This document shows, piece by piece, positions 9,643-48,640 of a DNA stretch of 64,000 nt; position 1 is the stretch's first letter, and every line of letters starts with the position of its first letter. This DNA is from Diplonema papillatum. Its lineage: Eukaryota > Euglenozoa > Diplonemea > Diplonemida > Diplonemidae. The stretch is from the NCBI GenBank assembly GCA_030068145.1, contig JAPJBO010000315.1:1-64000 (forward strand). Direction: 5' to 3'. The notes beneath the pieces were generated by a model that did no database searches, was not told the DNA's origin, and saw only the letters and a program-made list of their open reading frames with translations. A program made the position numbers and the translations under genes.

Positions 9643-12600
9643 TCAAACAGGGATGTAGCTCGAATTATCTACAGAACTGGCCCTTTTCTGCAATGTCGCG
9701 TACTTTCGCTTGTCCATCTTGATTGACTTGATTGCCTCAAGCAGTGCACCTTCATTGATGTCTGTGCGGTTTGTGTGCTGGCTTTTAAACAGAGGCCAAG
9801 TTGCAATTATTTTCAACTCTCTCCCCGGATTTCCCGATTTTTGCCGTCAGATCCACCAGCCCTTTAAATATTGCACTATAAGTGCAACTGACCTGACACA
9901 AGCTGCATACCCTTCGGAAGATGCGTCAAGAGGTGGAAGCAATCAGCGAACGACTGCCCCATCAAATCGCGTTGAAAGTGCAGAAGAAGTCCTGTATTCG
10001 TTGAATTACGTACAATTGCGCGATACACAGCACGTCCGCTGCAAACTCGGAGCCTGTGTTTACGAAATGCACTGAACACTCCGTTTCGACCCGTACCACA
10101 TTGGTCCAATGTACGCAAAATATTTAATTGCATTTTTTTACATGCTTTCGTTTGCGTGTATTGGCTTGCGTGAAGTCGGCTTTAGCGAAGCAAACGGAGG
10201 CAACCACATTCGCGAAAGCAGGTAAACGCAAAAACGTTCTGAACTGATAGACACACCTACTGCGGATCGGTGGAGCCAGGAAGAGTGCAGCAGAAAGAGA
10301 TCCCAAATACGACACGCAATGTTGATTGGCAAACTCTTGCTGAAGATCGTCATGAACCTGCGGTGGTTTCGGCATTGTCAAAGGCTGTTCTCCACAGAGA
10401 GTTCTTCGAAACATGACATGAATCCAGAAAGTAGAAAGTGATGTGCATAGTGTCGAATGTCTCCAAGAGGCTGGGCAATTGCTCTCGAATGGGGCACCAA
10501 ATTTCATAGTCCATGTCGCTCTTTGATATTTCGAGTCTACCGCACATTTGCGTCTGCGCCATGCTGTCGCATCCCCGACGCAAAGCCGCAAACCCGCCTT
10601 CCTCTCCTCGGAGCCTCTTTCACGATGCCTTCGTTTTCACTGGCGAAACTTAGCGCAGTGTAACAGAAATCGTCCACGATATTCGCGTTGGCACCGGCCC
10701 GCAGCAGTTGTGTAAATTTGTTGCATTAGTGTGATTGTCAGGCCTTCGCAGCAGTTCTTTTACGACGCGTTTGTGGCCATGCAGACTTGCACGAATGAGA
10801 GCGGTCGCCGTGGATGGCTTGTCCACGGTTTCCAACTGGTTTGCTTGGTCCACCAGCCTGTCGGATCGCATCTTCTTTCTTGTCTTAACTCACGCATTCC
10901 TTTGGACTGGGTTCTGGTTTAAAGGCGTTCAAGCCATAATCCATCCAGTGGTTGCATCACGACACTGTTCGATCGAACGCTACTCCTAGAAACGGAGTGT
11001 ACTTGAAGCTTTCACCGCTACTGAGCTAGATTTTTCAGCGGGGATCCCGCTGCAGAGACCCGCCCGCGAGTGACGAAAAGGCCCCCGCGGGACGAGCCAC
11101 AGTGGGATGTCTCTTATCAGCACAGCATACTACGCCTTGCATTTGCTCCTGTGTCCGCCAAACCCGTGGTTTTCGTCGGGTTTCATTTAAGTCTACTCCA
11201 CCTTGCTTTCTTCTGCAGGATATCGAGGCATACCAGTCGTAAACATAGCACTGTGGAGTGAGGTCTACAGCAGCAAAGTGTGCATGAAGCCCGGGAAGCG
11301 CATCTTCGAATACCAGATCATAGAGCCTGAGGTGCTCTCCAATTTCCTGTGTGGTGTATGAAATCCGTTCTACGAGCTGGTGTCGGAAGACAGAAATACT
11401 TGAGCCTAAAGTAGTAATGGTGGTTCGAACTTGGGACGCAGGAACCATTTGACGGTAGACTGCACAATTCGCTGCCGACCACCTCTTTGTCTCCGGTGCC
11501 CGCCATTGTGTCAGACGAGCCGAGGACCCATCTGGAAAGGCGCACGTCCTATTCTCCTTCGCAGGTAGCCCTTGCGCGTTGGCAACTACGTAGTTTAAAC
11601 TTGATATCCAGCAACAATAACCTGCGTAGTATGTGTCCATTCTAGCTCGGGCGCAAGTTTGGAAGACGAACGGAGCAACCCTTGCAGACAAAGGAGTAAC
11701 TCGACTGAACGGCACCGGTCCGAACGCAGCAGCGGTGACGCGTCGGCATTTGCACTTCTGGATGGGGCTGCCGCCGAGATCACTGATGGCAAGCGGCACT
11801 TCGTCCGCATGTGGTTAAAGGACATCCCATTCCGTCCTAAATGCTCGCTTGTGATGGATTGCATACCTGAGGAATCACCCGGAAAAACGAGATCAGATGG
11901 GTCTGGTGCACGAGATTTGCGAGCGACACGAAGACATGCTGCTGCTCCATGTGAAGCAGCATCATGGCTACGATGTATGACATGCCCTGAACATAGCCAA
12001 CGTCAGGTCTGCGATATTGTTTGACAGATGAATCTTGTCTTGATGGTTCGGGAATTATTGTCACACCAACCAAGAACCTACAGTGCAAACAACCCTGGAC
12101 TTTGTTGAAGATCCTGTTGCTGGCGCAATAACAAGCATACCTGTACTGCACGTAAGCCTGAAGAATGCCAGTCAGAGAATCAGCCATCGGTCCTTCTTTG
12201 AAGATTTGAAAGCTTGGGAACGTCCTGTGTGGGGCACGACTCGAGTTAGATACAGTTAGTTGGCACAATTCGTTTGCACTGAGCCTTCAGAATCCAGAGC
12301 AGCAACGTGAGAGAGAAACCGCCTTCACAGTCCCAGAGCCTTTTCCCCCTCGCTCATGGCCATCGCTCACGCGCTGGCCTGTCCCGAACATGTCAAAACA
12401 CGTTAAAAAGGCACAGTAAAATGTCACAGCCACTACAGCGACTTGGACCGTTCCCGGGAGCGCATCAAACCCAGCCAAAGAGTGGGCACGCGTTGGCAGC
12501 CCCAAATCCTGCCTCGCGCCCACCTGCATGCGTTCTCACAGCCTCTCCTGTGCTGTATCAAGAGTAGAGAGAGAAAGAGATGCGTTTTATTCTTGAGAGT

Positions 12601-32800: not shown

Positions 32801-33580
32801 CCCGGGCTGGCCGACGCTTCGACTTCGCGCAGCTTGCGCTCGAGCTTGTTTGTTTCGGCGCGCAGGACGACGAGCGCTTCGAAGGCCGGGTCCGCTGCAG
32901 CCGCCTCCACGCCGCCGAGGTCGTACACGACCGTGTACGCCGCGACCGCCAGCAGCGTCGCGATGCCGAAGCCTTTGCCCGGCGGCGGCCGCCCCGAGAT
33001 GCGTTGTGCCGGCGCATGCAGATTACCGCCGCAGATCATTTCCGGTCTAATACAAACTAACAGCCAACTGGTCCGGGCTCCTGGTAAATTCCCCGAAACT
33101 CCCCGATAAATTCGCCTGGACCAAATGGAACAGTGTCTAACACTGCCTATAATAGCAGGGGTTCGACCAGCTCAGTGAGCAAAAGGTGGGGAGAGCAAGC
33201 TCTTGAGTGTAAAGAGAAGGAAATACCCGCAACTCCAAGACGCCCCCTGCCCCCCCCCGGGGGCACGGGCTGACCGACGCTTCGACTTCGCGCAGCTTGC
33301 GCTCGAGCTCGTTTTTTTCGGCGCGCAGGACGACGAGCGCTTCGAAGGCGGGGTCCGCTGCGGACGCCACCACGCCGCCCCGGGCGCCGCCGAGGTCGTA
33401 CGCGACGACCGTGTACGCCGCGACCGCCAGCAGCGTCGCGATGCCGAAGCCGCCGACCAGCAGCGCGAGTCGAAACCCGCGCAGCCGCGGCGCGCCTTTG
33501 CCCGGCGGCGGCCGCCCCGAGGCGCGCGGCGCGTCTGCAGGTGTACCCGCCGCCGTGCTTTCCTGTCCCGATGTCGTCAT
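29835..33580 (-). CDS. GT61-family glycosyltransferase (type II membrane protein), four exons
   Basis: Exons 33580-33227, 31858-31690, 31482-30953 and 30347-29835 join in phases 0, 1, 0 to give 521 residues. Exon 1 encodes a short cytoplasmic tail, a membrane anchor (LALLVGGFGIATLLAVAAYT) and a coiled-coil stem (LRAEKNELERKLREVEA), typical of Golgi enzymes. Exon 3 has the GT61 features FRQALQLEFGLR and VSILKRSDRTF. Exon 4 carries the family signature DTDMLIAAHGAALANV, then GTSVVELFPH, then LMGLNYFAFEA, then a Cys-rich segment. The family includes EOGT-like, xylosyl- and POMGNT2-like enzymes; the donor sugar is unknown. Donors are GTATTT, GTATTC and GTGTGT. Intron 1 contains two decayed copies of exon 1 and a 28-bp minisatellite; intron 3 contains a MITE. 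An extra small exon in intron 1 is possible. Confidence 0.87.
30460..30746. mobile_element. TA-flanked MITE in GT61 intron 3
   Basis: The ends read TACCGTGCACCCACAACTTT and the inverse of TACTGTGCACCCACAACTGT. The inverted repeat runs about 38 bp with few mismatches through CCACAACGTGGTCAGAAT. TA bounds both sides. The interior has no ORF. Confidence 0.8.
31912..32229. repeat. 28-bp GC-rich minisatellite, about 11 units
   Basis: The unit is close to cgcgccacgaggccttctca followed by ggccgcac. Variants (aagcc, cggcggcac, ccgaac) are interspersed in a pattern suggesting higher-order duplication. Because 28 is not a multiple of three, an ORF through it cycles through three frames, yet no stop appears in at least one direction. 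It lies in GT61 intron 1. Confidence 0.9.
32235..33226 (-). pseudogene. Two decayed tandem copies of GT61 exon 1
   Basis: Bases 32780-33000 repeat the anchor/stem part of exon 1 (GFGIATLLAVAAYTVV, then LVVLRAETNKLERKLREVEA) but lack the APRLRGFRLALL segment and end in a different phase. Bases 32385-32560 are a third copy with further indels. Each copy is followed by the same spacer (gcatgcagattaccgccgca, then cacctggtccgggctcctgg). A unit of about 450 bp therefore exists in three copies, and only the rightmost one keeps the ATG and phase needed to splice to exon 2. Confidence 0.8.
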
Positions 33581-35687: not shown

Positions 35688-38087
35688 CTAGCAGAACATG
35701 TGCGTTGGATTGTCGGAGGTCAGCACACGTTTCGCTCTCTCAGTTCCGAGAACCCGGACAAGCTGGTGCATGTCAAGGCGAGAGTACAATGTGAGGACAG
35801 AAGGCGTGATCTCGTCGGTGATGTTGTTGACGAGCTCATGATAGAACCACGGGCACTGCGGGAGCTGGTAGAAGATGATGGACTTCACGCCCGAGATGAA
35901 GAACCGGCGGAAGAAGTAGAACCGCTCCGTCATCAGCAGGAAGCTCCGCTTCTTGCTCGTGAACTCTTTGATCGCGTGGTGCATCTCCTTCACGGGCGTG
36001 TACTCGCACAGCTCGCAGAACGAGTCGCGGTCGACGGACTCGAAAAAGTTCCGCACCCGCGTGTAGTCGAAATACGACGGGATGAACACGATGGTGGACA
36101 TGGTGCCGATGTTCGAATTCATGCCCGAGATCAGCCGGGAGAAAATCCTCTTCTCGAAGTACTCGAACCGCTCGTCGGGGCTCTTCGCGACGGAAGACAC
36201 GTCGAGGCGGTGGAAAAGGTGCCGCGCCTCGTTCACGACCCGCGTGAGCTCCCCATTGAAGCTCCGGCCGAGCTTCAGGAGCCCGGACCGGTTCTTGCAG
36301 CCGTTTGTCATCAAAGCGTTGAATTCCGCCGCGTTTGCGCGGGACACCGCGATGGTCTGCCGGACGACGGCTCCCTCCCCGTCGAGGAGCCGCTGCTTTA
36401 TGCGGTAGATGTCCGCGCAGGTCTGGATGTCCATCGGCAGCTGGTTGACGGCCGCCACGGACTCCTCCACCCAGTGGAAGTTCTGCAGCGCCATCACCTC
36501 GAGCTGGTCGAGATACAGGACCTCGATCGACGCGAGGAAGTCGTTGCCCTGCTTTTTGTTCTTCGCGAGCACCGTGGAGAGCCCGAGGGGCGACGCGAAG
36601 ATGATGTCCGACTTGGCGAAGCTCGAGAAAATCTGCACCTGCTTCACCGCCCGCGGCAGAGGCGCCTCGCCCGCCGCCGCCGCGGCCCCCGGCTTCTGCT
36701 TCTTGTCGAAGTTGACCGCGACGCCGAAGCAGAACTTGTCGTTGATGTTGCCGGAGAACTGCTGCTTGTAGTCCTGCGTGCGCCGGTGGAACTTCGGGTC
36801 CTTCTCCTGCTCGAATTCGCTGAAGTCTTCGACGAAGCGTTCCCAGTTGGTGACGTCGCTGCACCCAGTTATCCGGACGAGGCTTTCGACGTACTGCAAG
36901 CAGACGTTCCTGTACGGCAAGAGGACCAGCACCGTGGGGCGCTGGTACCCCTGGTCTCGGAAGGTGTCGTCGTCCGCCTCGCTCGCGTCGAGCTTCTTCT
37001 TTTTGATCATCCGATTGTGCGCGGAGACGGTGTGCGTGTTGCGGAGGAGGTGCGCCAAGGCGTGGAGCAGGTGTGCGTCGACGACCGCCGGCGCGTTCTC
37101 CCACGTGCGCAGCGGGAAGAGGACGTCGGCGTACGACTCGAGGGAGGCGAGGTACGCGCGGCCGAAGCAGCGCTGCTTCTCGGGCAAGGCGGCGGCGGCC
37201 GCCGCCGGCTCCGGCCCCGGCGCGAGGCAGCTGGCTGCCAGGAAGTTGCCCGGCACCGCGCCGGCCGTCGCCCGGGCCTGCAGCGCCTGCAAGTCGGCGG
37301 CATCGGCGCGCGCCGCGAACGTCGCGTGCGGCGCCAGGTCCGGCCAGCCGCCTTGGCTGCTCGGCAGGGCCGCCGCGGTCTTCTGCTTCTTCGCCGGGCG
37401 GGCTGCGCCGCCGCCTTCGGCGGCCGCGCCCTTTTCGAAGTGCGCCAAGAACGCCGCCGTGTGCAGGACCGGGTCGAGGGGCTCGAACACCTCCTCTTCG
37501 TCGTCGGACCCTTCGTCCCCGGATTCGGTGCTTTCGCTGGGGGCGGCGGGTTCGCCCTGCCGGTCGTCTTCCTCCTCGTCTTCTTCGCTGTCGCTCGGGG
37601 GTTGCCCGCGGTTGCGGCCGGACTGCTTCACTTCGGTTTCAAGCTGCTTCAAAAGCTCACGCTCCTCGGGAGATAGCTTCGCCATTTCTTCTTCGTCGAG
37701 TTCGGATCCGAGGTCGTCGTCGTCGTCGCCTTCTTCGGATTCTTCGAGTTCCTCGATTTCCTCGACTTCTTCTTCGTCGGGGAGGTTGTCGAGGTCGTCT
37801 GCAGGGTTCGGCCTGGTCACGCCGAAGGACTGCAGCAACGCCGCGTAGCCCTGTTCGTCTGCCCGAAGGGCGTCGGTCATCGGCTCCTCGCTGCTGGAGC
37901 TGACGGCGTCATCGTCGCGCTTGCGCTTCTTCTCGAGGACCTTGTCCAGCCGCGCGTTGTCCCGGGCGACCTTCTCTTCGCGCGTCTTCTTCTTCCTGCC
38001 GCCGCCCTTCGTTCCGCCGCCCGTCCACTTTCCTCCCTTTCCGGGGCGGCCCCCCTTGCCGCCCTTCCCCTTCCCGCGGCCCCCCAT
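35688..38087 (-). CDS. UTP25: U3 small nucleolar RNA-associated protein 25 (UTP25/DEF)
   Basis: This single long exon encodes 799 residues from ATG 38087. UTP25 is a nucleolar component of the small-subunit processome needed for 18S pre-rRNA cleavage; it has a DEAD-box-like fold without the catalytic motifs. The first 270 residues are Gly/Lys-rich and then acidic (GRGKGKGGKGGRPGKGG, EEVEEIEELEESEEGDDDDD), typical of nucleolar proteins. The conserved body follows: RPTVLVLLPYRNVCLQYVES, NDKFCFGVAVNF, SDIIFASPLGL, VLYLDQLEVMALQNFHWVEE, STIVFIPSYFDYTRVRNFFE, then SIIFYQLPQCPWFYHELVN. The usual ending LGTERAKRVLTSDNPTHMF is present. The frame stays open upstream to 38291, but the methionine at 38087 begins the family-like basic N-terminus. 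Length matches fungal and animal orthologues. Confidence 0.95.
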   Translation of the reverse strand: MGGRGKGKGGKGGRPGKGGKWTGGGTKGGGRKKKTREEKVARDNARLDKVLEKKRKRDDDAVSSSSEEPMTDALRADEQGYAALLQSFGVTRPNPADDLDNLPDEEEVEEIEELEESEEGDDDDDLGSELDEEEMAKLSPEERELLKQLETEVKQSGRNRGQPPSDSEEDEEEDDRQGEPAAPSESTESGDEGSDDEEEVFEPLDPVLHTAAFLAHFEKGAAAEGGGAARPAKKQKTAAALPSSQGGWPDLAPHATFAARADAADLQALQARATAGAVPGNFLAASCLAPGPEPAAAAAALPEKQRCFGRAYLASLESYADVLFPLRTWENAPAVVDAHLLHALAHLLRNTHTVSAHNRMIKKKKLDASEADDDTFRDQGYQRPTVLVLLPYRNVCLQYVESLVRITGCSDVTNWERFVEDFSEFEQEKDPKFHRRTQDYKQQFSGNINDKFCFGVAVNFDKKQKPGAAAAAGEAPLPRAVKQVQIFSSFAKSDIIFASPLGLSTVLAKNKKQGNDFLASIEVLYLDQLEVMALQNFHWVEESVAAVNQLPMDIQTCADIYRIKQRLLDGEGAVVRQTIAVSRANAAEFNALMTNGCKNRSGLLKLGRSFNGELTRVVNEARHLFHRLDVSSVAKSPDERFEYFEKRIFSRLISGMNSNIGTMSTIVFIPSYFDYTRVRNFFESVDRDSFCELCEYTPVKEMHHAIKEFTSKKRSFLLMTERFYFFRRFFISGVKSIIFYQLPQCPWFYHELVNNITDEITPSVLTLYSRLDMHQLVRVLGTERAKRVLTSDNPTHMFC

Positions 38088-38320
38088 CTTCTTCCCCTGG
38101 CGCCTTCGTGGTTGGTGAGTGGAGTGAGCTTGCATAGGTCGATTCTGCTCGCGCTGGCTTGGCGTGGCCCATCTGCGTATGCTCTGCACGCTCCCCACAT
38201 GTCGAGCTGACTGGGGGCAGGCAAACCTTTGTCGATGCTGCTTGTTCGCTGGTATGCGTGCCTTCATGCCACGCTGACTGAGGCAAAGCAAACACGCTGG
38301 CGGTTGGTGTCGCGTTCCGG

Positions 38321-38760
38321 ATTATCTCCAGCGCTCGCAGTGGTCTCTTCTGGTTCGCAACGGACTATTTTGTTGATGAGGATGCAAGACGCCTTGTCGA
38401 CCAGTGACCCAGAGAAAGTCTTGAAAGCCCAAGCCGCCGTCACCCGCCGGAGGGAGACGGTAGCATGCACTGCGGCAGGGCCGCTTCCTTTTCCGGCGAA
38501 CACGGTGGTCTGGCAGCCTGTCTGGCCTTCCGGATTCTCCAGTGCTCCTTTCTGGTTCACAACCGACCATCTTGTTGATGAGGATGCCAGACACCTTCGT
38601 CCAGAGAGACGGAAAAAGTCTTGAAAGCCCAAGTCGCCGTCAGACACGGCAGCATGCACTGCGGCTGGGCCGTTTCCTTTGCCGGGGCGGGCGAACAGGC
38701 TGGTCTGGCAGCCCTGTCGCCTTCCGGATTCTCCAGCGCAGTGGTCTCTTTCCCCAGCCT
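38321..38760. repeat. Tandem repeat of about 205 bp upstream of UTP25
   Basis: Two full units and a partial third carry ttgttgatgaggatgc, gtcttgaaagcccaag and agcatgcactgcggc, about 80% identical. The first unit begins about 230 bp upstream of the UTP25 start. No coding frame is shared between units. Confidence 0.85.
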
Positions 38761-40808: not shown

Positions 40809-43800
40809 CTACACGCCTCTCAATGCCAACTCGGGAGCTTGGCTACGGTACGGTTGCAGGTCTACTTCGTCCTCCTCATTGATGGGAGCCTCGCCTGCGC
40901 TAATGGGCTCGCCTCTACCGACGGCTTCGAGCATTTGCCTGATTCCCTTCTGTCGGTGGCCACGAGCGATTTTGAGAGCCGTATCTCCGACTGCGTTAGT
41001 TGTTGCCGTGTAACAGCTTTCTTTTTGAGGGCACGGGAAAAAGACAGGCGTTTCGCTTTGTTTGCGCGTGCCTCCCATGTTTCGTGTTCAGGTTACGACT
41101 TGCAGCTTCTTTTGAAGCATCCAGGGCGGTCGTAGGGGTTTACTAGATACTAGCACTTGCCAATTTCTGCCAATCCAGCAGCCGTGTCACGTGTCCGGAC
41201 ACTCCCCCGGGCCAAAAAAACACCACAGCTATTCTTTCCCCGCTGGCGCGGTAGAGGAAACGGACTTTCGGGGACCATGAATCCGCGTGCTGGCCGAACA
41301 GTAACGCGGGGGGAGGAAAACGCGTTTCAATTTAGGGAGCGGGGCATGCACCCCTGGAGGCCATGGCTTGTTTTTAGTTGCTAGGTTTCCGGTAAACTCA
41401 TTCTTTTCTTGCGCAGTAGTTGCCCACTGGCAAATGAAACGATGGGATGTGCATACATCGATCGCGGATATGGATGGAAGCTTCTGCTATGAGCAGCTGT
41501 CTGACGACGTCTTCGTGATCGCATTGGCTTGCCACAACGAGTGCTGTCGAGTCATCTGTATAGCGTTGATGGGGTGCCTTTACTTTGCGGCAATGAAGGA
41601 TCGGCATCGTGACAAGGCGAGTTAGATCCTTGCCTGATCCACTCCCTTTTCTGATGGCCAACCTTCAGGAATAAAAGAGAGAGAGAGAGAGAGAGAGAGA
41701 AAGACGAGTTAGAGAGATCAAACTCTGGCAAATGGAAGATTGCCGCAACCTCGTCCGCTTTGCCCTGCGGCTGACCAACCTTTCGAGCGTTTGTTCAGCG
41801 CAAGCGCCAACCTTCAAGATAATAATATGCCACGCTTTGATGCATTGGTTCCAGCCACTGGGTCTGAGAGCCCGTGGTTGTGTAATATTGCCTAGCTTGA
41901 CCCCCCCGTAGCACGTGCTTCCAGTGCACTGAAAGAAAACAAACATACAGTTGCCTTGAATGTCGGTATCCGCGTCTGCTTCGAGCAACATGGCAATCAC
42001 ATTCGTATGAGCGTTCCGGCAGGCCATAATGAGGGCCGTGTCGGTCACTGTGTAGTAAGTAGGATGGCTGGCTAGAAAGAGAGACAACAACGATACGCGA
42101 TTAGCTGTTCATGTCATTACAAAGACCAAATCGTGGAGTGGACATCTCGCCCCTCCACGGGGGTTTTTGCCTCGTAAGGGGGCTTACCTTCAGACAAACA
42201 AGAACTAAAGCACATACGATTGCCTTGCATATCAACGTCAGCCCCCGCTGCCAGCAATTTCCGAACAATCTCTTCGATGCCGTTGCGACACGCTACGATC
42301 AGTGCCGTGTCTCCAACTGCGGGATATGAAATGCACTTGATATATATGGTACAGAAACGGTCGACATGCAAAATATCGCGAAGTTTGTGACCACGACTCA
42401 GCCCCCGTAGGGTACACTGGAGCGAAATGCGAAATGCTAGGCAGAACTGCAGAGGTGGAAGAACATTTCCGGACTTGGAGCTTGCACGGCTAAGTGAAGT
42501 ACTGCACCTAGCATCAACTGATCAATGCTGAGAGGGAAAGAGAGAGAAGACACATCGAACCAAGTCTAACGGTGGGTTCTCCACCGCTAGGCTAGATCCG
42601 GGGCAGCTCCCTGAGGACAGCGGCGGGGGTAGTCACTTAGCAGTCCCAGGGCCTCTCCACCCCCGCCTGCTCGTGGTCATCGCTACCGCGCTGAACTTGA
42701 GAGAAATAGAGTGCAGCGACCATGTCTCCGAGCAATTTCCGGCTGCCTCACTACTAACCTACTTCTAAAGCTGGCGTAGGTCGTTTCCTCGGAAGCGCGG
42801 TCCCCGTCGTGTACAGGGTGGGATTTCTTGCATTGGCATTTTTCGTTGGTTTCGTTTAACCTTTCGTGCGCACCGTTGCTCCGGAGATGCACCCTTCAGT
42901 ACAAATGGACTACTCGTTGCAACGAACAAGATGCTACCGCCGACTAGTGGCAAGAGGTGGAGATGCGTTCAAATCTGAATCATTGCTCCTTCACTGGGGC
43001 TTGCGGTTGAGACGTCCGACACTTTGTTCCTCTCCCTCCGCTCACCCACGATAACAGGTCCGAGAACCATAACCTAGTTCTGTGACGAGAGGCATACCGA
43101 TGTTCTGCATATTCGTGTCAGCGCCAGCCTTCAGCAGCAACGTTACTGGCCCAATGTAGCCGTTACGGCTGGCTTTGATGAGCGCAGTATCGCGGACTAT
43201 ATTTGTTATATATGGATAGAGCTTGGGAAAAGGAAGTTCGCACACAGCCGATGGGCGGTGTGCACCAACAGGCAGCGATGTAGCAGCTGAAAGCTGATGA
43301 CTTGCGCCAGAAGTTTCTCGGCGTAAGGCACTGGGTGGAAGTCGGCTGAACCGGGAGCTACCGGAGAAGGTGCCTTGGTGATTCGGGGTGTTACACGGTG
43401 TTACACCTGGTTCGTTCGCGGGGATAAATGAAACCTCGGTAAAGGACTGCGTTATCTTTTCCCATTCAAGAAGTCAGAAGAAGTCCATACACTTGTCCTG
43501 CGCGTCTGGATTGGAGCCGGCCTCGAGCAGCTTCTCGACGACTAAGCTGTGCCCGTTGCGGCCCGCCTCGATCAAGGCTGTTCCACCGGCTGTGTAAAAG
43601 GGCAAGGTTGTTAGCCACGGACGAGAATGGAAAAGACTCGTTGATATCTCGTTGTTCGATCTACAACAGCGATCTACAACATCTACAGCCCAGTTCCAGG
43701 TTACTGCAAACCGAACTGCATCTCGTCCAGTTTTCAGAGGACTGGCGTGCTGGTGGGGAAGCTTTACTGTACCGGGCTAAACTCATGCTTGAGCCAGGAT

Positions 43801-46800
43801 GCCAACTCTGCTGCCTTTCCGGTGGGCTCTTGGTTGCAGACCCGCTCGCATACACCCTTCATAACAGTGGCGTTGCGCGCTGAAGTCATCCATAATTTGC
43901 CCGCAAACCCAGAGCGTCACGTTGCGTCGCCCGTAGCTTTTTTATGAACCGCGGTTTTGGTCTCGCTCTCCGTCGCGGGATTCGCTCTTGGACGCAAACC
44001 AACCTAAAATTGGAGCGCATCAGTGGGGACTGTCGGCCCTGTTCAGGTGCGAGCACACTCCACGGATCCATCGTTTTTTTCATACTTCCCTTTATCGTCG
44101 TAAAGGGGGGGTCGAATAACAACACCAGTGGTATTATTCGATTTGTCGAATAATAATAAAAGTTCCGGGTAGCGGAACTGTAACAGGATCAAATAGTGGT
44201 AGTGTTTTTTAGACAACCAGACGTGTGTCAAACTGTTATTATTCGACCCCCCCTTTACTTGTTGTTCGTGCGTGCCGATTATCATTTCCCCACTTGTATT
44301 TACCTGGTTCATTTTCCGGTTAGGAAAACTGACAACCCCCGAAGCACGCTGCCTGCATCTTTCGTGCCTGCACGTAGTAGTAGTAGTAGTAGTAGTATTT
44401 GTCGTCTGCCGAAGCAGCCGGAGACAGCAGGCGCAGGGGGCAGGTCTTGCTTTACAATTCTCTTCTTCATGGAGACCCGCCCCCGGCAATCCCGACTGTC
44501 CAATCACTGTCGCGAAAGGTTTGTGCCCTCTAGTGATGAGGTGGTTGACCAGGCCCCCACGAAGCCTTATACACAACACGGCTACAACACGAGGATGCAG
44601 CCCTGCTTCGGTGTGCACTCAGCCATCACAGGGCCTCAGATCTCGCTACTTGACCTGACACAGCTGCCACCCAGAAGGCCGCAGCAGTAACCTTCGCAAT
44701 GAAGGCACGCGCGGCTGAGTGTATGTAGGCGATCCATACAACAGCCGCATCAGACGCCCCCCCCGAAGCACGCTGCCCGCATCTTTCGTGCCTGCACGCA
44801 ACAAAAATAATTGAGGGCGACCCGCAAGATTCTCAGTACCAAAAAAAAAGGAGGCATACTGACGTCGGGAATATCCAGTGCAGCGCCGGCCTCCATCAGG
44901 AGCTTGACGACGACATGGTATCCCTTTTCGCTCGCCTTCACGAGCGCTGTATTACCCCCTGTGCGTGATGAGTGATTTGGTCCCTGGTAGTCCTATCAAC
45001 AATTGGCTGCGCCTTTCTGAGCGCGGGTGGCAGTCAACCGTTTAAAGAGGGGGCAAGGTTCAGGTCTCACAGACGTTCTCGGAAGAGGCTGCCTGCTTCC
45101 TGCACGGATGGCAGATCATGCAGACCGGGAACAGCGCCTTGCAGGAGACCTGAGCTGTCATGAGTGGCGGGCTGGTCTTTCGCCCTGGCCCCAGCAGCAG
45201 GCGAGCGCCGGTTTGAAAAACTGAGTTCGCGAAAATGCGCGTTCTCTCGCTGCCACAACAAGCGATTTGCACCGAGTCACCTGTCACGGTTTCTCAATTG
45301 GTTTATCCGGTCTCGATGAAGTCCGCCGTGATGCCACGTGCTGCGGCTACCCTTGTTCGTCGTTGCTCAGACCGAGACCACTCAAGGATGGAGACGATCT
45401 CGATATTGTGTCGTAGGTGTGTCATGGTTTATATCATCATTTTTACCCGTCAGGCTGAGTATGGGGTAACTGGTTCAGTTGCAACCATCCGGAGGAGGAA
45501 ACGCCGGGGAATGGTGTGCGTCAACAATAAGTGCATACATCGGTCTTGCGTGTCGGTGGCAGCCCCAAACCCGAGCAGGAGCTTGACGACAGGCACGTTG
45601 CCAGTCTCACAGGCCTTCATCAATGCCGTGCCGCCATCTGTCAGGAGGGGTTTGCATTTGAAGCTTCTGTATACGTAGCTCTGCACACAACGGCCAACTC
45701 CGGGCGAATTCAATACGCTTCAAGTCCGTCAGAGAGAAAACCCATCAAAACAAGATGCTGGGGTATGGGTCAGTGAGTAAAACATACAAGAATCGGAAAC
45801 CGATATGCTAGCTCCTGCTTCAAGCAAGCCGCGGACGCAAACCTCATGCTGCTCATTGCATGCGCACATGAGTGCAGTGACGCCGTCTGTGTGGGAGGGG
45901 GATACCGTGTCGTTGCTCAAAAGGAAAGGGGATGAGTATATATTGCCAAACCTCACCCAACACGACCCGCTAATCCACGGACACAATTTTTTTTTGGAGT
46001 GGGAATATCGGGGCATTACAGGTTTCAATGGCTTTCATGTTTTGTTTTGGGTCAAAAGTCAGGCTATTAGCTTCATTTTTGCCTCAGGTTTCCAAATTCC
46101 GTCTCAATAGCCAATTTGCTTTTCCCGCTCTGAAACCGAGAAGCCTTTGTTTAGGCCACCCGAACCTTCCAAAAGGGGGGGGGGTCCGGGGTGCTCTAAA
46201 CAAACAGTTTGCACTTCTCCAGTCCATTTGTCGCGTTAAACATACGACCAACGTACTGGTACTGTTTGCCATCTGTGTGCCCCTCGCCCCGCTCCCCCTG
46301 GTGCACACTCCTGAACCCAACAGCCCATTTCAAATTCATCCACCACTCAGATACTGTGTGCTGGTAAATCATTGGCACGAGTAGATGCAGACCGGAGATC
46401 ACACGTAACAAGGCGCTTGTGTCAACTCGGAGAGAATCTGTCAAGAATTCTGGGCTGCTTCTGAGCCTCGACCCTCTCACTCGGCTTAGCACTCGCAGCA
46501 GCCCCAAACTTCTGTCAGCCAGCCCACCATGCCCAGCGACGACCGATGGCCAGCCCCTGACCGCGAGCCCAGCCCTTGACCGCCAGCCAGCTTCCTGGCA
46601 CAGCTGGCCTAACCCACGCCTCCACCGGACCCCACGACTTTTTTCATCGAAGGTCGTTTTTTGCACTTTTTTATTTTATGTTTTGAGCCGCCCGGCTTTC
46701 CAAATTCCGTCAGCTGACGGAATTTGGAATGGGAAGCTAATGCCCTGAGCGTCGGGGCTACCCCCACGTAAGACCCTCCTTATAAATCACTGGTCGCGGC

Positions 46801-46972
46801 GCCCAGAAGCGGGCGAGAGACGCATACCGCTGTTGCGACTATCGACGACAAGAGCAGACGACCGCAGCAGCATGCGCAGTGCATGCTCGTTGCCCCTCGC
46901 GCTCGCGATGTGGAGGGGCGTGAAGCCGGCGGCATGGCGCCTGAGGAACACGGCGGCCGCAAGCGTTTGCAT
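40809..46972 (-). CDS. Ankyrin-repeat protein made of uniform 99-nt exons, ten exons
   Basis: The predicted protein has 372 residues and is almost wholly ankyrin repeats, so a protein-binding scaffold. Exon 1 (46972-46828, 145 nt) gives MQTLAAAVFLRRHAAGFTPL and the first repeat. Eight exons of exactly 99 nt follow: 45886-45788, 45637-45539, 44958-44860, 43589-43491, 43196-43098, 42316-42218, 42047-41949 and 41555-41457. The last exon is 40990-40809. Every intron is phase 1, and each exon encodes one 33-residue repeat starting at the same point (for example GDTALIVACRNGIEEIVRKL). Donors are GTATGC, GTATGT or GTATGG. The C-terminus ends in an acidic tail (APINEEDEVDLQPYRS). The 33-residue unit is the normal ANK length; the one-exon-per-repeat regularity is the unusual part. 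Introns contain MITEs and dispersed repeats. The upstream block is shared with the GT92 and DAHP synthase genes. Confidence 0.92.
41671..41702. repeat. (AG)n microsatellite in ANK intron 8
   Basis: About 14 AG units are followed by agacgagttagagag, the start of the R4 repeat tail. The rest of the R4 tail is not recognisable here. Confidence 0.8.
42530..42760. repeat. Composite of two dispersed repeats in ANK intron 6
   Basis: Bases 42530-42700 match the 12.56 kb repeat. Bases 42700-42760 match the conserved R4 tail (gtgcagcgaccatgtctccg). Both are in the orientation seen elsewhere. Confidence 0.65.
44101..44257. mobile_element. 157-bp MITE with GGGGGGGTCG termini in ANK intron 4
   Basis: The sequence TAAAGGGGGGGTCGAATAA at 44101-44119 is inverted perfectly at 44239-44257, with TA at both outer edges. 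The interior repeats TCGAATAA and its inverse. The termini share G7-TC with element 4 at 3838-5072, which suggests one transposase serves both. Confidence 0.85.
46052..46748. mobile_element. Possible TIR element in ANK intron 1
   Basis: Bases 46052-46105 (tcaggctattagcttc, then tttccaaattccgtc) are matched inverted by 46712-46748 (gacggaatttggaa, then gaagctaatgccctga). Next to the right arm, attccgtcagctgacggaat forms a perfect palindrome. The interior contains repeat R7. No target duplication is evident. Confidence 0.5.
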
Positions 46973-47079: not shown

Positions 47080-48640
47080 GTTCGCGGCTAGAAGACTTGC
47101 TTGACAACATAACGCAGGTGTCCTAAGGCAAGCTCAGCGGGAACAGAAATCTCGCGTAGAGCATAAGGGTAAAAGCTTGCTCGATACACGATCTTCAGTA
47201 CCGATCCTCGGTGTGAAAGCAGCCGAACGATCCTTTGGTCTCGCTTCATGCTCAAGGGATGAAGCCGGAGACAGAAAAACTACCACAGGGATACCCTTAT
47301 GACGCCCAACACTACCTGCCGCCTCCAGTGTGACCATGAGTTCTCTAAACAGAACAGCCAGGATGGAGTTCCCCTCGCTGCAAGAGCTACTGTAAAAAAA
47401 GGTCCCTACAACAAGTCTTGCTGTTCAGCAAGAACACCTCACCGTGAAACAGAGATACTAACAACAGAATCTGGGTTCGACTCGCGTCATGCACTGACAC
47501 CCCGCAAAAGATGTGTTCACGGGAAGCGTGCAAAAAAAAAAAAAATGGCATGGCGGGAGCAAAAAAGGAAGAGAACGTCTGAGTAAGTTAGTTAGAGTAT
47601 ATTTCTTCGTGGAGCAAGGGGAACAAGAAGAGGAAAACGGAGAATAACCTGCACGACATGGCAAGTCCTGGGCTCGTTCGGGAAGCTTCAGCAAGCGATG
47701 TTCTCGCGATGATATGAACACGGATTTCTGCGTTACTGATGCATATCCGGTATGCCGGCATAATTTCCGGTACTACAACGAACAAGAAATATTGAAGCGT
47801 TCTCGAGAGAGAACCAAGTACAAGGAATGACATGAGGGAGAAACTACGAAGACTCGTCGTGGAGGACACCACCAACCAACCGATGGCGACGCTTTACAGT
47901 CCCTTCGCTTTCTTGACGCCTTCACGCGATGTTCGAACAGGCGAACAGGTAAACAGGTAGTGTTTGTCTTAAATGTCGCAAATGCTTTAGTTACTATTTT
48001 TTCTTTCTTTTGCACTTACGCTGCTTAGCGATCACAGATTGGAGAGCCATAGTGATCACATTTTTTTGCTGGCAAAGTTTGTTTGGCACTCCGTCATATT
48101 GGCGCTGATCAGTTGAAGCTCATGCTCCTCCACGAGGAAAAACTGCCCGATAGCAGCCATTGCAACACCAGCGATCGGTTAGATATGAACGCGATGCAAA
48201 TGATGTCGAACAGTCTGCATGAAGTTCAATGAAATCATGAACCGTTCGCAACACTTTCTGGGTGCTTCTCGAGAACCAAATCAAGCCAACAGCTCGTATT
48301 GTGAGACAAGAGATTCTCCTGCCCGTTGTGGATACTGCGCTACATTGCTGCAGTAGCCCTAGTGCACAGGAGTACACTTGTCAACTTCAGAACTGATGAC
48401 ATGCGACAGATTGATTCGTCTGAAAAGGAGAGGAATATTGCCGGCAATGCTATCGGACAGCTGAGGCTAAACACGTTAGGTACTGCAGCCCAGGGACGAG
48501 GGAGAGAGGGGTGGGGGTGGTAGCTGTTGGTGCTGGCTTTGAGGAATAAGGGAAGGCAAGAATCTTTGCGATGGGGGAGGGGGCAGAAGCCGAAGAACCA
48601 AAACCAGTGATTTTAGGCAGCTTTAAGCCCTGTGCTTACG
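47080..48640. other. Gene-poor stretch with possible exon fragments
   Basis: No complete gene is seen. A minus-strand frame at about 48060-48165 (MAAIGQFFLVEEHELQLISA, ending at a stop) and a short frame at about 47655-47725 between CAG and GTTATT could be exons of the gene described at 48640-50637. Neither is supported by homology. A 13-A run lies at about 47532-47544. Confidence 0.3.

Follow-up and report, generated by a model that had tools for sequence, protein, structure and literature searches.

A Diplonema papillatum ankyrin gene with one repeat per exon, probably the product of ancient exon duplication

The diplonemid Diplonema papillatum carries an ankyrin gene in which eight consecutive internal exons encode exactly one repeat each, all of the same length, phase and repeat register. 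The exons have diverged strongly from one another, and elsewhere in the genome a second gene shows this architecture. The gene lies in a 64,000-nt stretch (positions 1 to 64,000 of contig JAPJBO010000315.1, assembly GCA_030068145.1), which was analysed as a whole and is called the window here. We consider it probable that this is an ordinary ankyrin-only gene whose array derives from an ancient tandem duplication of exons and is now apparently static. Its protein of 372 aa and about ten repeats would probably serve as an intracellular binding scaffold or adaptor. A previous sequence-only reading had suggested that such an array might work as a cassette system for diversifying binding surfaces, in analogy to the pathogen receptors of brown algae. 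In the following, we weigh this proposal and two other explanations against the structure of the gene, its counterparts in the genome and the uninterrupted ankyrin open reading frames (ORFs) found beside them.

Gene architecture

With exon borders recomputed from the sequence, the gene is modelled as ten exons on the minus strand (46972-40809). Joined, they amount to 1119 nt in a single open frame of 372 aa plus stop, which consists chiefly of ankyrin repeats. The start of the gene is uncertain, as an alternative in-frame ATG occurs at 47110, 138 nt upstream. The features are as follows, where R1 denotes a profile derived from exons E2-E9.

E1, 46972-46828, minus strand: 145 nt, first coding exon with the ATG and the first ankyrin repeat; phase-1 donor GTATGC
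E2, 45886-45788, minus strand: 99 nt, one ankyrin repeat, phase 1-1; 67.6 bits to R1
E3, 45637-45539, minus strand: 99 nt, one ankyrin repeat, phase 1-1; R1 match
E4, 44958-44860, minus strand: 99 nt, one ankyrin repeat, phase 1-1; R1 match
E5, 43589-43491, minus strand: 99 nt, one ankyrin repeat, phase 1-1; R1 match
E6, 43196-43098, minus strand: 99 nt, one ankyrin repeat, phase 1-1; R1 match
E7, 42316-42218, minus strand: 99 nt, one ankyrin repeat, phase 1-1; R1 match
E8, 42047-41949, minus strand: 99 nt, one ankyrin repeat, phase 1-1; R1 match
E9, 41555-41457, minus strand: 99 nt, one ankyrin repeat, phase 1-1; R1 match
E10, 40990-40809, minus strand: 182 nt, last coding exon with half an ankyrin repeat, a tail and the stop TAG; 21.9 bits to R1

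All eight internal exons measure exactly 99 nt and all nine introns are in phase 1, with GTATG donors and CAG or TAG acceptors throughout (9/9 each). A single repeat register runs through E2-E9, in which residues T3, A4, L5, A8 and L20 are invariant. The recomputed borders thus bear out what had been read from the sequence before, namely eight 99-nt one-repeat exons in the same register separated by phase-1 introns. Such agreement in eight exons is not chance. Because length and phase are uniform, any of E2-E9 could be skipped or copied without loss of frame, and the frame-neutral build claimed earlier holds as well. Tandem copying of a symmetrical exon produces the same uniformity, which is silent on whether the build is put to use today.

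On the spliced predicted protein, the Pfam family Ank_2 matches five stretches with an E-value of 1.5e-67 and 224.6 bits (cut-off 27.3). At E 0.001 or better, Pfam returned ankyrin families only for this protein, and no receptor, signalling or output domain. The gene may extend into a further exon missed by the prediction.

The introns measure 941, 150, 580, 1270, 294, 781, 170, 393 and 466 nt in order. Several repeat-like elements reside in them. Intron 4 contains a 159-bp stretch with perfect 20-bp terminal inverted repeats, resembling a small inverted-repeat transposon (44100-44258), and a 39-bp direct repeat that is 97% identical between its copies (44336-44374 and 44760-44798). In intron 1 there is a perfect palindrome of 32 bp (46698-46729), half of which recurs about 600 bp away (46089-46103).

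Related genes in the genome

Genes of the same kind were sought with an acceptor-plus-repeat pattern (the 28-place pattern), run over the 271-Mb genome (2910 contigs) together with a reversed control. It matched 21 places, spread over nine contigs, against one place for the control. Besides the window's own contig, C315, we read 10-kb stretches from the other eight. One-repeat exons occur on three of the nine, C315, C551 and C797, so that the proposed check for other genes made of 99-nt phase-1 ankyrin exons came out positive. C222, C322 and C473 contain long uninterrupted ankyrin ORFs and C1353 one single repeat, while the matching stretches on C782 and C804 were read as not ankyrin.

The gene on C551, referred to as gene A, again has eight 99-nt phase-1 ankyrin exons, seven with the donor GTATG and one with GTGTG. 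Its last exon is a half repeat ending in a stop, like that of the window gene; the 10-kb stretch revealed no first exon. C797 holds three 99-nt one-repeat exons, one of them with the donor GTATAG, which may belong to more than one gene and probably represent a third gene of this build. Sampled genome loci were also scanned for ankyrin-like phase-1 exons (score of at least 15, CAG or TAG acceptor, GTRNG-type donor, lengths of 87-111 nt in multiples of 3). The resulting 34 rows reduce to 18 distinct exons, all of 99 nt: eight from the window gene, eight from the gene on C551 and two on C797.

The 28-place pattern, through which the window gene was not discovered, catches four of that gene's nine acceptor-bearing exons. 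From this, the estimated chance of missing a similar eight-exon gene is about 1%, rising to about 13% at the rate of gene A (2/9). One-repeat-exon ankyrin genes thus appear to be few in this genome, as judged from pattern matches. A looser acceptor pattern gave 694 places against 43 for its reversed control. This figure is not an exon count, and we rejected it as a tally of such genes, since among the matches listed and read some places sit inside uninterrupted ORFs. Further genes of this build are possible, for example on C214. Among side observations, a family of places alike to CAGATGGTTCGACGGCTCTGCATATTGC occurs on C392, C478, C345 and C132 (G000), spaced about 2.5 kb apart on C392.

Age and mode of the exon array

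The array of the window gene would go back to a single symmetrical 99-nt phase-1 exon that was duplicated in tandem, together with its intron, long ago, and the uniform exon length and phase would be the trace of this history. Sequence divergence gives an impression of the age. Exons E2-E9 are pairwise 31-56% identical in protein and 40-59% in DNA; the highest DNA identity of any exon pair is 59.6%, in this gene as in gene A. Comparison of the window gene's introns with each other revealed no likeness beyond short or dispersed-repeat matches. With exons this far apart and introns unrelated, recent exon copying is not visible and the copying is judged to be old. Sequence comparison likewise found no signs of present-day exon exchange or copying in either eight-exon gene. 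The array thus appears static today, its exons having diverged beyond recent copying, a view that is based on divergence within one genome. Rapid exon divergence under selection could make the copying look older than it really is.

How the arrays grew is suggested by the distribution of similarity among exons, the introns having diverged too far to bear on it. Mean amino acid identity is 42.2% within the window gene and 41.9% within gene A, compared with 36.8% between the two, and the excess within genes is significant by label permutation (p 0.00025). In the window gene, similarity is higher between adjacent exons than between the remaining pairs (p 0.019), an effect of modest size; in gene A the same comparison is not significant (p 0.098). 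Growth of each array through copying of adjacent exons within it would produce both tendencies. Part of the similarity is explained by the common ankyrin consensus, as the best matches of single exons to repeats of uninterrupted ORFs (47-66% aa) are often equal to those with exons of the same gene.

A common exon order in the two genes was examined and rejected: the diagonal score of 376 hardly departs from 363, the mean of the permutations (p 0.30). Amino acid identity does not exceed 50% for any pairing of an exon of one gene with an exon of the other. Single-repeat phylogeny proved too short to establish relationships, with one of 44 inner branches starred and a mostly unresolved tree (47 repeats, 32 columns), so only its branch lengths are usable. 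End branches measure 0.78-1.13 for seven of the eight window exons and 0.13 for E7. For the repeats of two uninterrupted ORFs they are mostly 0-0.6, with exceptions at 1.53, 4.3 and 8.0. Bacterial relatives were also considered. A contig scan of 19 candidate stretches yielded one locus, in a Treponema MAG, whose 27% identity was put down to generic ankyrin similarity.

Contrast with uninterrupted ankyrin ORFs

In many other ankyrin ORFs of this genome, no introns interrupt the array. To compare both forms, we used 44 uninterrupted segments from sampled genome loci, each of at least 200 aa and at least five repeats, after removing thirteen loci that duplicated C222, C315, C551 or C797. In 30 of the 44 segments, some of which are overlapping views of one ORF (three on C430, for example), at least two repeats are 80% or more identical in DNA, and the median of the highest pair identity is 88.9%. 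Neither eight-exon gene has a pair at this level, the maximum being 59.6% in each. Most segments were chosen by the strength of their match to ankyrin profiles or to the window protein, which favours consensus-like repeats. Six of the 44 have diverged as far as the window gene, so that genes with one-repeat exons are not alone in showing low identity.

These comparisons indicate, at the level of sequence, that recent copying or homogenising of repeats takes place in uninterrupted genes here, whereas its rate is not measured by the figure of 30 in 44. High identity could alternatively come from homogenisation of old copies. The uninterrupted arrays mostly look more recently expanded, which is the opposite of what a cassette system predicts, in a sample that was selected by match and includes the six equally diverged segments. 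On C1442 (24541-36891, G000), ankyrin matches are spaced 1734 bases apart, as in a tandem gene array.

The ORFs on C423, C550 and C430 consist of the same 33-residue repeat as the window gene and differ in having no introns in the array. C423 is an ORF of 481 aa with start and stop present, and its best repeat is 66% identical in amino acids to exon 3 of gene A; the best repeat on C550 reaches 62% to exon E5 of the window gene. The repeats of C423 are close in style to gene A, so that one genome has a related repeat family both with and without introns between the units. The sequence-only reading had counted the same repeats in one uninterrupted exon of a related species, free of copy-number variation, as a sign against itself. 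What we find corresponds to this in part, being related repeats in one ORF (C423) in the same genome. A clean case of one exon per repeat beside intronless ankyrin ORFs permits asking whether units are gained and lost faster in uninterrupted arrays than in intron-separated ones.

The presence of both forms also fits an explanation by which the array was once uninterrupted and introns were inserted later at the same point of each repeat through a recurring target sequence. The related arrays on C423 and C550 speak for it, as do introns that are unlike each other in sequence and length. The junctions, however, show no shared target. The last bases of E2-E9 are T, T, A, T, G, C, T and T, and the first two bases vary too. 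Insertion would have to hit the identical base in each of eight repeats, and to do so in two genes, and it leaves the greater likeness of neighbouring exons in the window gene as a point against it. We therefore regard later intron insertion as unlikely.

Comparison with known systems

In human ANK1, ankyrin repeats are largely encoded by exons of 99 nt or multiples thereof. Unlike the window gene, ANK1 has further spectrin-binding and death domains, and the likeness is one of exon length. Another frame is offered by repeat-protein genes in which exon and repeat unit coincide, the second class of Street, Rose and Barrick 2006 as cited in PMC4585158, where local duplication of intron/exon modules is given as the explanation. 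In the window gene, all eight internal exons likewise span a single repeat, each in the same register; its first exon additionally has an N-terminal stretch and its last a half repeat plus tail, and we see no important difference. The window gene is likely a further example of this known class.

The brown-algal LRR-ROCO genes were the model for the cassette proposal. Their one-repeat exons of 72 bp in phase 2 reportedly undergo shuffling and alternative splicing (PMC11378527). These genes share with the window gene one repeat per symmetrical exon of uniform length and phase, and differ in repeat type and dimensions, with LRR, 72 bp and phase 2 on one side and ankyrin, 99 nt and phase 1 on the other. 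A member of the LRR-ROCO or NB-ARC-TPR candidate receptors would be expected to have a ROC-COR GTPase or NB-ARC domain, neither of which was detected in the window gene's predicted protein, and to show intense, recent exon duplication or shuffling, of which the window gene, with a maximum of 59.6% DNA identity between exons and unrelated introns, gives no sign. For the window gene, the brown-alga parallel is an assumption. Our search of the literature on ankyrin with exon shuffling and on brown algae, which covered few subscription papers, found no paper on an ankyrin version of an exon-shuffling system.

In a cassette system, exon gain, loss, shuffling or alternative splicing would vary the binding surface, perhaps for pathogen recognition. 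The in-frame exchangeability of E2-E9, the existence of a second gene and probably a third of the same build, and the shuffling and splicing reported for the 72-bp phase-2 one-LRR exons of the algal ROCO genes (PMC11378527) speak for it. The genes themselves show no sign of the proposed diversification: exons are 40-59% identical in DNA with no recent pair in either gene, introns are unrelated, and the exon order is not shared with gene A, to which no exon exceeds 50% amino acid identity. The pathogen-receptor analogy fares no better, as Pfam found no receptor, signalling or output domain in the predicted protein. Moreover, the 28-place pattern leads to just three such loci genome-wide, to which the looser pattern adds places beyond those read. 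Taken together, a cassette system appears quite improbable. A diversity system could possibly still operate, mainly via alternative splicing or strain variation. In one such form, ankyrin would be a third repeat family in frame-neutral cassettes, and combinatorial skipping of fixed old exons would yield many binding surfaces. This we hold for more doubtful still; if true, diversity would come from splicing and not from recent exon copying.

That the gene is a pseudogene or a prediction artefact whose exons are not spliced as modelled is very improbable: introns do carry repeat-like elements and the borders are predicted from sequence, but the 1119-nt frame is open through ten exons, all nine splice pairs are canonical and follow one consensus, and gene A has a similar build.

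Splice donors and neighbouring genes

The GTATG donor had appeared as a candidate for a special splice signal of the ankyrin gene. This idea was dropped, since a TBC-domain gene in the window uses the same donor: both of its donors that were read are GTATGC, following the last exon bases 12141 and 11867. The donor is thus probably ordinary and the uniform phase a feature of the ankyrin gene, as far as a sample of two introns tells; the TBC-domain gene's introns were read from the sequence as phases 2 and 0. Three segments of this gene match Pfam RabGAP-TBC in order (E 6.8e-16, 8.3e-4 and 8.4e-6), two above the curated cut-off and one below.

Between two of these segments and on the same strand lies an ankyrin-like fragment with a frame change (10850-10540, minus strand), apparently inside an intron of the TBC-domain gene. 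R1 matches it with 18 bits at 10749-10807 and 8 bits at 10672-10715. Another weak R1 match, of 14.5 bits at 32917-33009, was taken as chance, its translations being GC-rich and not ankyrin-like. Closer to the ankyrin gene, the minus strand contains an uninterrupted frame of 877 aa (35691-38321) with both UTP25 domains (Pfam E 6.5e-69 and 2.6e-49).
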